Below, piece after piece: positions 5,971 through 35,240 of a stretch of 48,377 bases of DNA. Source of the DNA: a virus. A model generated the notes under the pieces. It ran no database searches and was not told the origin of the DNA. It worked only from the letters and a program-made list of their open reading frames with translations. A program made the position numbers and the translations under genes. Numbering within the stretch: the first letter of the stretch is position 1; each line of letters opens with the position of its first letter. The DNA is taken from IMG/VR virus record IMGVR_UViG_3300018078_000003, positions 1-48,377 of that record. The stretch is one strand, 5' to 3'.

Positions 5971-7128
5971 ATGACCGATTTCCTGGACCTCCTCGAGACC
6001 GTCCGGGCCGAGGAAGCATCCATCCACCGCCTGTTCGGCGACGCCGGCACCTCGGTGCGCGGCATGCGCCGCGACGACCCCCGCTACCACCGCTCGCTGG
6101 CCGAGGCCGCCGAGCTGTACGCCGGGGTCCTGTCCGGCCGCACCCCGATGCACCGCATGCAGGAAGCCATGAGCACCAGCGACTTCCCGCTGCTGTTCGG
6201 TGACATCCTCGACCGGCAGATGCTCGGCGCCTACGCCGAATGGCCGAGCGTGTGGCCATCCGTGGCGCGCCGCGCGACCGTGCGGGATTTCCGCACCGTC
6301 AAGCGGTTCACCATGGACGGCGCCGAAGCGGTGCTGCCCGAGGTTCCGCAGGGGTCGGAGTACCCCGAGGAGGCCCTGACCGAGGGCAAGTACGAGTACG
6401 CGGTCAAGAAGTTCGGCCGCCGGGTGCCGTTCCTGTGGGAGGCATTCATCAACGACGACCTCGACAGCCTGCGGAACACGCCCAACCGTCTCGCCAAGGC
6501 CGCCCGCATCTCCGAGGACCGGTTCTTCACCGACCTGTTCACCGCCACCGGCGGCGGCCCGGACGCGACGTTCTTCGCTGCCGGCAACAGCAACATCGTC
6601 ACCGGCAACCCGGCGCTGTCCGTGGCCGGCCTACAGACGGCGTTCACCGTCCTCGCCGCCCAGCGCGACATCGACGGCAACCCGATCCTGAGCGGCAACG
6701 TCCGGCTGGTCGTGCCGCCGGCGCTCGAGGTCGTCGCCAACAACATCCTCAACGCCATCCAGATCGAGATCGCCGCCGGCTCCTCGTCGGCGACCGCCGA
6801 CCAGCTGGTGGCCAAGAACTGGATGACCAACCGGACCACCCTCGTGGTCAACCCGTACCTGCCGGTGATCGGCGTGACGAACCCCAACTCGTGGTACCTG
6901 TTCGCCGAGCAGGCAGTCGGCCGGCCGGCGCTCGAGATGGGGTTCCTGCGCGGCCACGAGTCGCCGGAGCTGTTCGCCAAGGCGCCGAACGCGCTGCGCG
7001 TGGGCGGCGGGCCGGTGGCCGTCGAGGACGGCGACTTCGACACCGACGGGATTAACTACAAGGTGCGGCACGTGTTCGGTGGCAGCCTGCTCGACCCGAA
7101 GGCTGCTGTCGCCTCCACGGTCGCCTGA
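5971..7128 (+). CDS. Major capsid protein
   Basis: 385 residues with CAGGAGG (5957-5963) before ATG 5971; this is the best ribosome site in the region, as expected for the most abundant protein. YPEEALTEGKYEYAVKKFG followed by WEAFINDDLDSL is the signature of HK97-fold capsid proteins related to Mu gpT. A Gly/Asn-rich central stretch and a C-terminal beta region follow. The stop overlaps the next ATG by one base (TGATG). Confidence 0.9.
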   Translation: MTDFLDLLETVRAEEASIHRLFGDAGTSVRGMRRDDPRYHRSLAEAAELYAGVLSGRTPMHRMQEAMSTSDFPLLFGDILDRQMLGAYAEWPSVWPSVARRATVRDFRTVKRFTMDGAEAVLPEVPQGSEYPEEALTEGKYEYAVKKFGRRVPFLWEAFINDDLDSLRNTPNRLAKAARISEDRFFTDLFTATGGGPDATFFAAGNSNIVTGNPALSVAGLQTAFTVLAAQRDIDGNPILSGNVRLVVPPALEVVANNILNAIQIEIAAGSSSATADQLVAKNWMTNRTTLVVNPYLPVIGVTNPNSWYLFAEQAVGRPALEMGFLRGHESPELFAKAPNALRVGGGPVAVEDGDFDTDGINYKVRHVFGGSLLDPKAAVASTVA

Positions 7129-28457: not shown

Positions 28458-28503
28458 GACCTGCGCTGATTCGTCTAGCTGCTGGTCACGTGGGTGGCGG
28501 AAT

Positions 28504-28530
28504 CGGGTTCAAGTCCCGTCACTCACCCCA
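28504..28530 (+). other. attP core: 3' end of a tRNA gene (probably tRNA-His)
   Basis: CGGGTTCAAGTCCCG is a T-arm missing only its first base pair, followed by CACTCAC, one C, and CCA. A C before CCA is the discriminator base typical of bacterial tRNA-His. No acceptor 5' strand (GTGAGTG) or anticodon arm lies upstream, so this is not a full gene. The base at 28503 (T) fails to pair with T28519, which suggests that identity with the host tRNA begins at 28504. Sits 79 bases before the integrase start. Integration here would restore the host tRNA 3' end. Confidence 0.82.
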
Positions 28531-28567
28531 CACGCTACCTGCACAAACATCGCTTGGCAAGACCCTA

Positions 28568-28608: not shown

Positions 28609-29796
28609 ATGGCGTGGGTGAGGACCCGGCACAACAGCGACGGCACCACCTCCTACGCCGTCATCTACCGCCACGGCGGACGGCAGACCAGCCTCACCTA
28701 CACCGACGAGAAGGCCGCCGCCCGCGCGGCCGCCGCGATCAACGCCGGCCTCTCCCCCGACGAGCTGATCTCCCCCACCCCCGATGCCTCCACCTTGTCC
28801 GTCGCCGAGGTCGTCGACCGGCACGTCGCCCAGCTGACCGGCGTCACCGACCGCACCCGCCACGACTACCGCATCCAGGCCCGCCGGCACATCACACCCA
28901 CCCTCGGCGGGCTACCCGTCGCCTCGATCACCCGTGACCACATCGCCACCTGGGTCAATGCTCTGGCCCGGAAGGTGTCCACCAAGACCCTCGCCAACCT
29001 GCACGGCCTGCTCTCCGCCGCGATGGCCACCGCCGTCGAGAGCGGCTGGCGCACCGACAACCCGTGCCGTGGGATGCGGTTGCCCCGCTCCGACGACCAC
29101 GAGCGCGCCGACATGCTCATCTTCACCCCCGAGCAGTACCGCCGCCTGCACGCTGCCCTGCCCGCCCATTGGCGACCGTTCGTCGCCTTCCTGGTGGCGT
29201 CCGGTGCCCGGTTCTCCGAAGCCACCGCGCTCGCCGTCGGCCAGGTCGAGCCGGACGGGTCGCAGGTACGGATCATCCGCGCGCACAAGCGGCAACCCGA
29301 CTCGACCTTCGAGGTCGGCCCCACCAAGACCCGCCGCTCGAGACGCACCGTCGTGATGCCCGACGACTACGCGCCGATCCTCGCCGACCTGGTGAACAGC
29401 CGCCGTGGTGACGAGCTCGTGTTCACCAGCCCGACCGGGCAGCAGGTGCGGCACTCCAACTTCCGCAACCGCGTGTGGGTGCCGGCCATCACCGCCATCA
29501 CTGTCTGCCCGACCCACCTGGCCGAGCACCGGGTGTCGCGGACGCCGGGGTTGCCGGAGCCGTGTGGCTGCGCCGGGTACATGACGCGGCGGGCCCGGAT
29601 CCATGACCTGCGGCACACATCGGCATCGTGGATGATCAACATTGGGGTGAGTCTGCCGGTGATTCAGCGCCGGCTCGGGCACGAGTCCATCACCACCACG
29701 GTCGACACCTACGGCCACCTGTTGCCCGATGTGCAGAAGACGGCCGCGCAGGCGATCACCACCATGTGGGCTATCGAGCCCTCACCCGCCGAGTAG
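28609..29796 (+). CDS. int: Tyrosine integrase
   Basis: 395 residues from ATG 28609. N-terminal arm-binding domain (VRTRHNSDGTTSYAVIYR), SAM-like core-binding domain (VVDRHVAQLTGVTDRTRHDY, NLHGLLSAAMATAVESGW), and catalytic domain with Arg201 (SGARFSEA), His332-x-x-Arg335 (HDLRHTSAS), His358 (RLGHES) and Tyr368 (VDTYGHLLPD). A Cys-rich insert (Cys300, 319, 321) before the HxxR is typical of actinobacterial members and may bind zinc. Recombines attP with the host tRNA. Converges with the repressor operon, overlapping its last gene by 15 bases. Confidence 0.93.
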   Translation: MAWVRTRHNSDGTTSYAVIYRHGGRQTSLTYTDEKAAARAAAAINAGLSPDELISPTPDASTLSVAEVVDRHVAQLTGVTDRTRHDYRIQARRHITPTLGGLPVASITRDHIATWVNALARKVSTKTLANLHGLLSAAMATAVESGWRTDNPCRGMRLPRSDDHERADMLIFTPEQYRRLHAALPAHWRPFVAFLVASGARFSEATALAVGQVEPDGSQVRIIRAHKRQPDSTFEVGPTKTRRSRRTVVMPDDYAPILADLVNSRRGDELVFTSPTGQQVRHSNFRNRVWVPAITAITVCPTHLAEHRVSRTPGLPEPCGCAGYMTRRARIHDLRHTSASWMINIGVSLPVIQRRLGHESITTTVDTYGHLLPDVQKTAAQAITTMWAIEPSPAE

Positions 29797-30408
29797 CTCG
29801 TTCAGGCAGCCGTCGAGCTCGAGCGGGCCGACCAGCGCCAGGCAGTGCTGCACCGCCTCAGCCTGCGTCCAGACGGTGTTCTCGACCGGCGGCACGGTCA
29901 CGTCGGGCAGCGGCTCCGGCAGCGGCGGCACGGTGGGCAGCAGCTCGGGGAGCAGTGTCGGGGCCGGCATCGGAAGATCCAAGATTTCGGCTGGTTCGTT
30001 ATAGGTGGCCGTCGAAGGTGCAACGCCCCTTGTAGGTACCGGTGACGGCGTTTCCCCCCACTCAGGTATGAAGTCCCCGGGCACGGTCGGCGCCGATGTC
30101 ACCGCCAGCACTGGCTCCCGTGACCGCTCTACCGGATCAGCCGCGCCCAACGTCAACGCCCCGGCTGCCGCCCCGGCGACAGCCACGGTCGCAGCCGAAG
30201 CCGTATGGTCACGCAGCTGCGAACCCAGCCACACGAATGGTGGGACGAGCACGGTTTTGCCACCGCGGATGACGCGCAGCGTGATATGTCGCTGCTCCGG
30301 GATCCTGTCCTCCACCTTCGCTTGTTCGAGCTGTGCAGTGATGTGCTCCGCCTCGTCAAGGAGCTCATCCAGCCGTCGTGTCAGTCGCCGCCGTTCGGCC
30401 TCACGCAT
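29782..30408 (-). CDS. Membrane-anchored Pro-rich protein co-transcribed with repressor
   Basis: 208 residues; GGGGAG precedes ATG 30408. Residues 1-35 form a charged coiled coil (RRRLTRRLDELLDEAEH). A membrane helix lies at about 73-95 (ASAATVAVAGAAAGALTLGA). A long Pro-rich outer stretch follows (PTLLPELLPTVPPLPEPLPD), then a C-terminal Cys pair (VQHCLALVGPLELDGCL). The topology puts the Pro-rich part outside. Being made from the lysogenic promoter, it is a candidate superinfection-exclusion or surface protein. Confidence 0.68.
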   Translation of the reverse strand: MREAERRRLTRRLDELLDEAEHITAQLEQAKVEDRIPEQRHITLRVIRGGKTVLVPPFVWLGSQLRDHTASAATVAVAGAAAGALTLGAADPVERSREPVLAVTSAPTVPGDFIPEWGETPSPVPTRGVAPSTATYNEPAEILDLPMPAPTLLPELLPTVPPLPEPLPDVTVPPVENTVWTQAEAVQHCLALVGPLELDGCLNELLGG

Positions 30409-30429: not shown

Positions 30430-30735
30430 TCATGCTCCTGGCAGCTCCTCCCGGCGCTCGATCAGATCTTCGAGACGGAGCTCACGCATTGCTTGCATCG
30501 CCAGCTCCGCCAACTTCCCCTCGGGCCAATCAAGACCCTTCTTTTCAAGCCACTTCCGGTTACGTAGCTGCGGCCAGTGGTTGCCGTTGATGAGATCGCT
30601 GATGACGTCGACCTTCACGCCGGACCTCTCGGCCAGCTCGCGCTGCGTGTAGATCTGCAGCTCCGCCATGCGCACCTCAACGGCCGCGGCGACCATGAGC
30701 CGCGCGGCCTTAGGCACGCGTGAGCGGCCCGCCAT
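30430..30735 (-). CDS. Probable phage repressor (helix-turn-helix)
   Basis: 101 residues from ATG 30735. The HTH lies at residues 28-52: IYTQRELAERSGVKVDVISDL, an XRE-like turn. The C-terminal half is helical (KLAELAMQAMRELRLEDLIE) and could dimerise. It reads away from the Cro-like gene across the mirror operator, and its -10 box overlaps the nearest operator box, implying autoregulation. The small size lacks a RecA-cleavable domain, so induction would work differently from lambda CI. Assignment as the immunity repressor comes from position and the HTH. Confidence 0.72.
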   Translation of the reverse strand: MAGRSRVPKAARLMVAAAVEVRMAELQIYTQRELAERSGVKVDVISDLINGNHWPQLRNRKWLEKKGLDWPEGKLAELAMQAMRELRLEDLIERREELPGA

Positions 30736-30742
30736 GCTCGGG

Positions 30743-30771
30743 AGACTATGGGAAAACGCGGGAGATTCCAA
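30743..30771 (-). promoter_or_regulatory. Lysogenic (repressor) promoter
   Basis: Minus-strand TTGGAA (30766-30771), 17-bp spacer, TAGTCT (30743-30748), then seven bases to ATG 30735. Predicts a leaderless repressor transcript. Two operator boxes lie in the spacer and one over the -10. Confidence 0.6.
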
Positions 30772-30788
30772 GTGATGGTCGGTCCTGC

Positions 30789-30817
30789 TTGCGGTCTCCC
30801 TATCTTTCCCGTACTCT
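30789..30817 (+). promoter_or_regulatory. Early lytic (Cro-side) promoter
   Basis: TTGCGG (30789-30794), 17-bp spacer, TACTCT (30812-30817), then seven bases to ATG 30825; the same geometry as the leftward promoter. Predicts a leaderless transcript for the rightward early operon. Confidence 0.6.
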
Positions 30818-30824
30818 CCCGGAC

Positions 30825-31070
30825 ATGGCTCAAGCGTCCCGTGTTCCGGATGAGGATCTTGCCATCATCGGCACGACGATTAAGAAGCTGCGCGGCGAAC
30901 AGGGCCGCCGCGTCGGGGACTTCGCCGCCGACGTGGGCATCAGCCGCCGGCACCTGTCCTACATCGAGCACGGACACGGCCGTGCCTCCGTCGCGATCTA
31001 CGGCCGGATCGCCCAAGCGCTCGACGTCCCGCTCGATCGCATCCTTGGCCAGAGGGTCGGTGCAGCATGA
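30825..31070 (+). CDS. Cro-like XRE-family regulator
   Basis: 81 residues from ATG 30825. One HTH_3 domain: IIGTTIKKLRGEQGRRVGDF, then AADVGISRRHLSYIEHGHG (recognition helix) and RIAQALDVPLDRIL. First gene of the rightward operon; probably competes with the repressor for the operator boxes. The stop overlaps the next ATG. Confidence 0.85.
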   Translation: MAQASRVPDEDLAIIGTTIKKLRGEQGRRVGDFAADVGISRRHLSYIEHGHGRASVAIYGRIAQALDVPLDRILGQRVGAA

Positions 31071-31336
31071 CCGAGCCGCAGCGTTACGTCGCCCGACCTG
31101 TTGCCGTGCAGGCCATCCGTTGCACTGGCCGGATCGAGGATGTCCCGGCGGACTGGCGCCTGGACGGCGAGTTCACCGTCGATGACACGACCGGCGACGT
31201 CATCGTCCAGACACTGCAAGGTCCGTCTCACGCGGGCCCGGGCGACTACATCGTGCGCGGTACGGCCGGTGAGTTCTACCCGGTCGCGGCGCTGATCTTC
31301 GAGCACAAGTACGAGCCGCTGGCGGTGATCGAGTGA
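31067..31336 (+). CDS. Small conserved phage protein (PGDYIV type)
   Basis: 89 residues (ATGA overlap). YVARPVAVQAIRCTG, a central beta region, then GPGDYIVRGTAGEFYPVAAL and IFEHKYEPL. This PGD-W/Y-I-V, G-E-F-x-P, F-x-x-x-Y pattern is widespread in phage early regions, but its role is unknown. Confidence 0.75.
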   Translation: MTEPQRYVARPVAVQAIRCTGRIEDVPADWRLDGEFTVDDTTGDVIVQTLQGPSHAGPGDYIVRGTAGEFYPVAALIFEHKYEPLAVIE

Positions 31337-31581
31337 TGGCCGCCCCGTTGCGCACCCCCACCCAGGTCGCCGAAGACACCGGCTTCTCCGAACACCTGAT
31401 CCGCCGCCTGTGCCGCGAACGCAAGGTCGAGCACGTCCGCGCCGGCCGCGGCCGGATCCTGCTCTCCCCGCCCCAGGTCACGGCCCTCGTTGCGCATCTC
31501 ACGATCCATCCCGAGCAGCCGCGGGCCGATGTTGATCTGCCGACGCCGCTGTCCCGCGCCCGCCGACGGAGGACCGCATGA
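31336..31581 (+). CDS. Excisionase-like or MerR-type DNA-binding protein
   Basis: 81 residues; ATG overlaps the previous stop (TGATG). TPTQVAEDTGFSEHLIRRLC is a winged HTH_17-type helix-turn-helix, and RGRILLSPPQVTALVAHL is the wing and tail. This size and fold are typical of excisionases, and its position in the early operon fits control of excision. Could also be a transcription regulator. Confidence 0.65.
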   Translation: MAAPLRTPTQVAEDTGFSEHLIRRLCRERKVEHVRAGRGRILLSPPQVTALVAHLTIHPEQPRADVDLPTPLSRARRRRTA

Positions 31582-33253: not shown

Positions 33254-34197
33254 TGACCGCCACGACGACGCGCAAGCGCGCCGCCGCCAAGAAGGCCGCA
33301 CCATCCGGGCCGGCCCGCATCCCGAAGCGTTCCCAGGGCTGGTACCGCGACCCCGACACCGGCGACAAGCTCCGCTCGGTCACCACCATCCTCGAGCAGG
33401 GCGTCCCTAAACCGCAGCTGGTCTTCTGGGCCGGGAACCTCACCGCCCAATCCGCGATCGACAACCTGCCCCACCTGATCGCATCCTCCCGCGACCCGGT
33501 CCGCCGCGCCGAGGCCTACGAGTGGCTGCGCCGCGCCCACACCCGGAAGAAGGACGAACGCGCCGACATCGGCTCCGCCGTCCACAAGATCGTCGAAGCG
33601 CTCCTGCTCGAACAGGCGCTCCCCAACGAGCTTCTCGACGACGACGCCATGGCCCCGTTCCTCGAGCACTTCCTGGCATTCGTCCGCAACTTCGAGGTCA
33701 CCTTCGAGGCCTCGGAGATGGTCGTCGCCAACCCCGACGAGGGCTACGCCGGCACTCTCGACTTCCTGATGCGCTCCCCGCACCTGTTCGGCGGGGTGCT
33801 GCTGATGGGCGACACCAAGACCGGCGGCGAGATGTGCACCGGCGACGGGTTGTGCGTCCGGATCCGCCCGTACGAGTTCAAGGAATGCCCCGGAGACCTG
33901 CACACCATCAAGGGCGTCTACGCCGAGGCGGGGCTGCAGATGTCGGCCTACGCCCACGCGTCGGTGTGCTGGCTGCGCAACGGGCAGAAGGTGCCGATGC
34001 CGGCGGTGCATGACGTCGGGGTCGTGCTGCATCTGCGACCTGAGGGATACATCGTGCATCGGGCTCGCTGCGGCGACGACCTGTTCGAGGTGTTCACGCA
34101 GGGTGCCCGTCGGGTGGCCGAGTTCACCTCGCAGACCAGCAAGACCGTCATCGGCGAGCCGTTCGCCGTTCCCACCGCGTTGAAGGCGAGTGCCTGA
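33253..34197 (+). CDS. RecB/Cas4-like PD-(D/E)XK exonuclease
   Basis: 314 residues (TGATG overlap upstream). The Lys/Ala-rich start is followed by the nuclease core: GSAVHKIVEALL (His111), YAGTLDFL (Asp170), MGDTKTGG (Asp187-x-Lys189) and AGLQMSAYAHASV (Gln229, Tyr233). These are the motifs of Cas4/RecB-type nucleases used in phage recombination. Between the catalytic Lys and the Gln motif lies a 30-residue insert with Cys195, Cys201 and Cys212, possibly a metal site. Predicted to resect double-strand ends. Confidence 0.85.
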   Translation: MTATTTRKRAAAKKAAPSGPARIPKRSQGWYRDPDTGDKLRSVTTILEQGVPKPQLVFWAGNLTAQSAIDNLPHLIASSRDPVRRAEAYEWLRRAHTRKKDERADIGSAVHKIVEALLLEQALPNELLDDDAMAPFLEHFLAFVRNFEVTFEASEMVVANPDEGYAGTLDFLMRSPHLFGGVLLMGDTKTGGEMCTGDGLCVRIRPYEFKECPGDLHTIKGVYAEAGLQMSAYAHASVCWLRNGQKVPMPAVHDVGVVLHLRPEGYIVHRARCGDDLFEVFTQGARRVAEFTSQTSKTVIGEPFAVPTALKASA

Positions 34198-35240
34198 TGC
34201 CCATCATCGACATCCAACGACGACTGCGCGAGCTCGGGCGCATCCGCATCGGGCAGGTCGTGACGACCAAGTCCGGCAAGACCGCACCGTCAAAGCTCGA
34301 CCGATTCCGGTTCACCTCGGCGAACCGACCGCTCCTGGAGCAGATCGCCGGGCACTACGGCGGTGAGGTCCGCGACTGGCAACCCCAGGGCAACGGTGCC
34401 GCCGGATTCGAGGTCATCACGGATGCCACCGAGGTCCCCGTCATCGTCCCGCCCGGTCAGCCCGTCTCGCAATGGTACGAGGCCTGGACTGGTGGCGGAT
34501 GCCAGCGGCGCTGTGATGGCGCCACCGAGATCCTTTCCGACCAGCCGTGCATCTGCGCCACGCAGGACGAGCGGATCTGCAAGCCCACTACCCGGCTCAA
34601 CGTCATGCTCCGCGACGTCGACGTGATCGGCGTGTTCCGCCTGGAGACTCACGGCTGGAACGCCGCGACCGAACTCCCTGCAGCCGCCGAGTTGTGCATC
34701 CAGGCTGCGGCAGCGCTCGGCCATCCGGTGCCCGCCGTGCTCGAGTTGCAGGAGCGGGTCGACAAGAAGGATGGCCAGACGCGGCGCTACATGGTGCCCG
34801 GCCTGGTCCCCGGTGTGTCGCCTGCCGCGCTCATCGGTGTCACTGGTTCGGCGCCTGCGCTGGCCAAGCAGGAGCGGCCTGCGATCGAGTCCGGTGGGGT
34901 GCCGGACTTCCTGGCCGAGGCGAAGGCCGCCACGTCGCTCGAGGAGTGGCGTGAGGTCTACACCCGGGCGTCGAACAGCGGCGCGCCGTGGACGATGCAG
35001 CTCAAGGCCGATCTGATCGCGATCGGGGAGCAGTTCAAGACTGCGACGCAGCCCGCCGGTGCTCCGGAACTGGATCCGGATGTGGTGTGGCAGCAGATCC
35101 TCGCCGTCGCCGGCGAGAAGGAAATGACCATCCCGGAGATCGAGGACGACTTCGCGCAGCGCAACGGCGGGGTCACCACGGCCAGCGCGTCCGGTCCGGA
35201 GCTCGGCGCCTACCTCGAGCACCTGTGGAGCGAGTCGTGA
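34197..35240 (+). CDS. phiC31 gp3-like protein (recombination directionality factor family)
   Basis: 347 residues (TGATG overlap). IDIQRRLRELGRIRIGQVV, then LDRFRFTSANRPLLEQIA, AGHYGGEVRDWQP, QWYEAWTGGGCQRRCDG, TTRLNVMLRDVDVIGVFRL and THGWNAATELP match the N-terminal domain of Streptomyces phage phiC31 gp3, including the Cys-rich patch. In phiC31 gp3 turns serine integrase toward excision and the family also has DNA-metabolism roles. This phage uses a tyrosine integrase, so a replication or recombination function next to the exonuclease is more likely. Confidence 0.82.
   Translation: MPIIDIQRRLRELGRIRIGQVVTTKSGKTAPSKLDRFRFTSANRPLLEQIAGHYGGEVRDWQPQGNGAAGFEVITDATEVPVIVPPGQPVSQWYEAWTGGGCQRRCDGATEILSDQPCICATQDERICKPTTRLNVMLRDVDVIGVFRLETHGWNAATELPAAAELCIQAAAALGHPVPAVLELQERVDKKDGQTRRYMVPGLVPGVSPAALIGVTGSAPALAKQERPAIESGGVPDFLAEAKAATSLEEWREVYTRASNSGAPWTMQLKADLIAIGEQFKTATQPAGAPELDPDVVWQQILAVAGEKEMTIPEIEDDFAQRNGGVTTASASGPELGAYLEHLWSES

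Follow-up and report, generated by a model that had tools for sequence, protein, structure and literature searches.

A mirrored array of one-turn direct repeats as the probable common operator of the divergent rep and cro promoters of a temperate phage

Described operators and the present locus

The CI and Cro regulators of lambda act on common operators between divergent promoters, with three sites at OR, each of them a palindrome bound by a dimer. XRE dimers normally occupy inverted half-sites, and direct repeats demand some other arrangement. For the HTH regulator Rco of the Bacillus plasmid pLS20, a pair of operators made of direct repeats and pointing towards each other at divergent promoters has been described, together with looping (PMC9986798, PMC4207663); as cited in the latter paper, ImmR of ICEBs1 binds in six regions, with three close to each of the promoters. 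Apl, Cox and Xis as a rule bind direct repeats spaced by one turn, and BldC binds direct repeats head to tail (PMC7498355, PMC5859096). The BPs repressor gp33, of which the active form has 103 aa, works at divergent promoters through an operator located between the -35 and -10 elements of PR (PMC4557955), and repressors of the L5 type act as monomers on asymmetric sites that are dispersed (PMC9283540).

We analysed a window that corresponds to a whole IMG/VR record of 48,377 bp, which encodes a tyrosine integrase and contains two small, divergently oriented HTH genes, designated rep and cro, separated by two mirrored triplets of short boxes (Table 1). As in pLS20, an HTH regulator gene, divergent promoters and two direct-repeat operators facing each other are found together; however, the Rco operators lie 75 bp apart and comprise at least 4 and 6 repeats, unlike the three plus three of the window, and Rco possesses a tetramerisation domain, whereas the AlphaFold2 monomer model of the window's Rep shows just a C-terminal helix, with no strand predicted. 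The boxes resemble the sites of 186 Apl, P2 Cox, Xis and BldC, which are also direct repeats about one turn apart and are bound cooperatively, and Apl acts at lytic/lysogenic promoters, which is the placement proposed here; in line with the Apl/Cox/Xis type, an Xis-like winged-HTH gene (weak single-sequence model) occurs nearby. Xis and BldC are winged-HTH proteins, unlike the XRE-type Rep and Cro, and Apl has one array in one direction plus a second array at att, of which no counterpart was found near the presumed attP of the window. The short repressor, the divergent promoters and the location of boxes between -35 and -10 recall BPs gp33, but the half-site of gp33 is a 12-bp palindrome with a variable spacer, and the lambda sites are likewise palindromic, whereas the window has single asymmetric 6-mers in direct repeat. 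L5-type stoperators are dispersed genome-wide, whereas the triplets occur at this place alone, with scattered single 6-mers elsewhere. The first-pass annotation knew of no described switch with this geometry; as a general claim this proved too strong in view of pLS20 Rco, 186 Apl, BldC, P2 Cox and lambda Xis, and Gordonia and Mycobacterium phages with known sequences show this layout as well (see below).

The six boxes and the two putative promoters

Table 1. Features of the window (coordinates in bp; right-hand boxes are given in the direction in which they read).
Feature	Coordinates	Strand	Basis or remark
Left triplet GGGAGA-N4-GGGAAA-N4-GGGAGA, GGGAGActatGGGAAAacgcGGGAGA	30740-30765	+	across rep promoter
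Left triplet boxes	30740-30745, 30750-30755, 30760-30765	+	sequence, pattern scan
Right triplet, identical box order, GGGAGAgtacGGGAAAgataGGGAGA	30795-30820	-	across cro promoter
Right triplet boxes	30820-30815, 30810-30805, 30800-30795	-	sequence, pattern scan
Putative rep promoter: TTGGAA (30771-30766), 17-bp spacer, TAGTCT (30748-30743), 7 nt to ATG	30736-30771	-	sequence reading
Putative cro promoter: TTGCGG (30789-30794), 17-bp spacer, TACTCT (30812-30817), 7 nt to ATG	30789-30824	+	sequence reading
rep, 101-aa XRE-type repressor	30430-30735	-	Pfam HTH_3 6.7e-6, iterative search, AlphaFold2 model
cro, 81-aa XRE-type protein	30825-31070	+	Pfam HTH_3 2.2e-10, tblastn
82-aa BldC/Xis-like winged-HTH protein, cro operon	31333-31581	+	phrog_1840 excisionase 6.9e-4, model, fold matches
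208-aa ORF downstream of rep	29782-30408		hydrophobic stretch, no family match
tRNA 3'-end-like sequence just upstream of int	28490-28535		probable attP core
Gp3-like ORF (recombination directionality factor-like)	34197-35240		strong Pfam match, 5e-44
tRNA-Gly (gcc) gene	6539-6618	-	predicted

In both triplets the boxes recur at a pitch of exactly 10 bp, the dyad lies at 30780, and the outer box is separated by 4 bases from the ATG on each side (30735 on the minus strand, 30825 on the plus strand), so that the mirror arrangement and the identical distances to the two start codons, both claimed by the first-pass annotation, hold in the sequence. The whole intergenic region forms a single inverted repeat of 42 nt (74% complementary; repeat search). 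When the 89-bp intergenic region was submitted to 20,000 dinucleotide shuffles, none came close to the observed mirrored triplet, which has 1 differing column (best shuffle, 4). In the whole record the exact triplet occurs twice, both times in the rep/cro intergenic region (pattern scan), and single GGGARA words are scattered elsewhere, none of them at pitch 10. The boxes are asymmetric and stand in direct repeat, i.e. they are not palindromic, and the overall mirror is the only inverted repeat found. The full mirrored pattern was not found in the viral contigs searched; two genome-contig matches to it were rejected as low-complexity G-runs.

Both putative promoters fit the formula TTGnnn-17-TAnTCT-7-ATG, with their -35 elements 17 bp apart. 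Since the ATG is located seven bases past TAnTCT in both cases, the rep and cro transcripts are probably leaderless. This promoter reading bears out the earlier proposal that two boxes fill each promoter spacer and one covers each -10: in each triplet the first two boxes lie inside the 17-bp spacer and the third one overlaps the -10 element. The claim that all six boxes occupy one face of the helix holds within each triplet, but not between them: measured between their centres, the two innermost boxes, one from each triplet, lie 35 bp apart (about 3.3 turns), and the triplets are therefore not obviously in phase with each other.

Regarding other genes of the record, the product of the ORF downstream of rep is possibly a membrane protein expressed in lysogeny, and the Gp3-like ORF occurs in a phage with an integrase of the tyrosine type.

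Related rep/cro pairs of actinophages

No close relatives of Rep or Cro were found in IMG/VR, and no relatives of the record at the DNA level were found among phages. Using an iterative search, we found that Rep shares homology with the N-terminal domain of actinophage proteins annotated as immunity repressors, and tblastn matched Cro to the 'Cro protein' of Gordonia phage Lton and to mycobacteriophage homologues. The distant relatives of Cro (about 35-44% identity, mostly 38-44%) belong to named Mycobacterium, Gordonia and Thermobifida phages, and 19 IMG/VR loci were reached from two of them; prophiGD11-1 and additional Gordonia phages came from another search. In Gordonia and Mycobacterium phages, and also in IMG/VR contigs, distant relatives of both regulators are likewise encoded as a divergent pair. 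An iterative profile search seeded with Rep, over 2,007 ORFs of these loci, picked up the divergently oriented repressor ORFs of nearly all loci known solely through Cro, ahead of any other ORF, which indicates that the rep/cro pair is inherited together, and these relatives place the phage among actinobacterial temperate phages. At L003, a locus found via a neighbouring gene, the ORFs read contained no rep/cro region.

We scanned the 46 bp upstream of each start for direct repeats of any word (at least 5 of 6 positions matching), the start codons being chosen by promoter score, not by boxes. Repeats at pitch 10 were present at the cro promoters of 17 of the 19 relatives' loci (2.2 expected) and at the rep promoters of 10 of 19 (1.6 expected), counts that are not fully independent, some of the loci being close to one another. 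No comparable excess was seen at any other pitch, on either the cro or the rep side of the 19 loci. The weaker matches at the rep promoters are partly due to the uncertainty of several rep starts. An earlier version of the scan, with a cruder assignment of the starts, had given 17/22 versus 2.9.

The relatives' cro promoters read TTGACN, GTTCCC-N4-GTTCCC, TACNNT, then 6-7 nt to the start, and a frequent reading of their rep promoters is TTGATGTTCCC-N4-GTTCCC plus a leaderless-type ATG (for example, TTGACATGTTCCCTGATGTTCCCTAGATT at cro and TTGATGTTCCCTAGGGTTTCCGG at rep in L024). In prophiGD11-1, mirrored pairs at the cro and rep promoters are accompanied by ATTCC, a third box that lies in phase over the -10 of cro. 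Words other than GTTCCC occur in L007, L008 and L010, and some loci have no mirrored boxes on the rep side. The gene 3' of cro is variable among the relatives (antirepressor, excise, hypothetical) while the boxes persist, showing that the boxes track the rep/cro pair. A search of IMG/VR for window-like promoter patterns yielded 15 loci, mostly unrelated; in one of them, L034 (8084-9031), TTTCCC-N4-TTTCCC takes the same register in the promoter of an independent cro/rep pair, with a start of the leaderless type and no mirrored boxes on the rep side.

The window thus shares with the rep/cro switches of Gordonia phages Lton, Ohgeesy and Murp, and of Mycobacterium phages ThulaThula and prophiGD11-1, a divergent XRE-type rep and cro, homology to the window's pair having been tested for Lton and ThulaThula. 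It also shares with the relatives the leaderless-type promoters (start 6-7 nt past the -10 in the relatives, and within that range in the window by sequence reading), the boxes of 10-bp pitch in the spacers and, in many loci, their mirrored orientation. It differs in the word (TCTCCC/TTTCCC versus usually GTTCCC), in the number of boxes per promoter (three clean ones versus usually two), in the gap between the -35 elements (17 bp versus a near-constant 117-121 bp, measured in 13 relatives, whose intervening DNA has a conserved central element) and in the length of the repressor (101 aa, versus mostly longer). Hence, of the pattern that the first-pass annotation proposed to look for in related phages, the pitch, the placement and the mirror are kept in distant relatives, whereas the word is not. 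The central element is partly conserved, around CGGGAATAC...GTAACTACG and CTGACCTGC (L009, L011, L013, L018, L023-L026, L028 and L030), and is absent from the window. DNA looping in a fixed helical phase was considered for the relatives and rejected: their box-to-box distances range from 132 to 138 bp in ten relatives, so that the helical phase is not constant among them.

Candidate binding proteins and the proposed switch

The site at 30740-30820 is very probably an operator common to two divergent phage-switch promoters, with head-to-tail half-sites one turn apart, a proposal of the first-pass annotation that gains support from the pitch, spacer placement and mirrored orientation of the relatives' boxes. 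A protein that polymerises along the DNA or bends it and thereby closes both promoters together, as the same annotation supposed, may act on this site. We consider it likely that this site is the operator of the lysis/lysogeny switch, where Rep and/or Cro would bind one subunit per box and exclude RNA polymerase, because both flanking genes encode XRE-type regulators, because the non-random boxes are confined to the rep/cro intergenic site and because pitch-10 repeats recur at the relatives' rep and cro promoters. The present evidence would fit either Rep or Cro as the binder. The Rep model (13 relatives in the alignment, pLDDT 91) comprises four helices plus the long C-terminal helix, and its nearest solved folds, with modest E-values, are those of ClgR, the restriction controller C.Esp1396I, Stl and lambda CI.

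A third candidate binder, missed by the first-pass annotation, is the BldC/Xis-like protein encoded two genes after cro. This protein might assemble head to tail on the boxes as 186 Apl does, shut both promoters and double as an excisionase, and the best fold matches of its model are indeed the BldC-DNA complex (6ama), RacA and the Pukovnik Xis (4j2n), BldC and Xis being known on head-to-tail direct repeats; these matches are weak, however (E about 0.01-0.1), and they come from a single-sequence model (pLDDT 72). The location of the gene within the cro operon, and the binding of Apl to one-turn direct repeats both between pR and pL and at att, would agree with such a role, but no GGGARA array lies near the presumed attP (about 28490-28535, an inferred position), and the Apl sites run in one direction whereas the window's boxes are mirrored. 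Furthermore, in the relatives that have boxes the gene after cro varies, often with no excisionase within the stretch read, and L007 and L008, where excise directly follows cro, have no TTCC pair at pitch 10. Altogether, we regard the BldC/Xis-like protein as an unlikely binder.

It may also be asked whether the six boxes are read separately at all, since they could stem from the inverted duplication of one promoter, or be parts of two palindromic operators with obscured halves. The 42-nt inverted repeat does take in the promoter hexamers and the start codons, and an inverted GGGAAC directly adjoins the second box of the rep side in some relatives (for instance, GTTTCCGGGAAC in L024). Promoter duplication alone is nevertheless insufficient for the relatives, in which the spacer word recurs at pitch 10 and the flanks differ, and no inverted box partner is common to both arms of the window, which makes either origin quite improbable.

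Returning to the binding of Rep and/or Cro, we propose that the left promoter drives the repressor gene, and the right one cro and the early lytic operon. The subunits of Rep and/or Cro would bind cooperatively, one per box and head to tail, on one face of the helix within a triplet; packed one turn apart, they would span the promoter down to the -10, beginning just below the -35, and RNA polymerase would be kept off any promoter so occupied. The roles would be divided as in lambda: Rep would chiefly keep the cro promoter closed and tune its own promoter, and Cro would close the rep promoter. With just 17 bp between the -35 elements, both promoters could be closed at full occupancy.

Since the distant relatives have pitch-10 repeats, usually of GTTCCC, the window carries a compact and divergent form, with three boxes per promoter, of an actinophage operator design that recurs among them. 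This recurrent direct-repeat design was not described in the open-licence PMC literature searched, where nothing relevant on GTTCCC operators was found either, and a description elsewhere is possible. More tentatively, and with considerable doubt, we suggest that a broad family of actinophage XRE regulators binds, head to tail, single asymmetric boxes of 6 bp that follow one another every helical turn in both spacers, with the pitch and position fixed and the word varying, and that the compact three-box form closes both leaderless promoters as a unit. If this is true, word, pitch 10, spacer position and mirror taken together would serve as a sequence rule that predicts the operators of many actinophages with uncharacterised switches, and likewise their immunity groups, and these sites would offer an easy way to test how direct repeats can be read by HTH regulators whose usual targets are palindromes.
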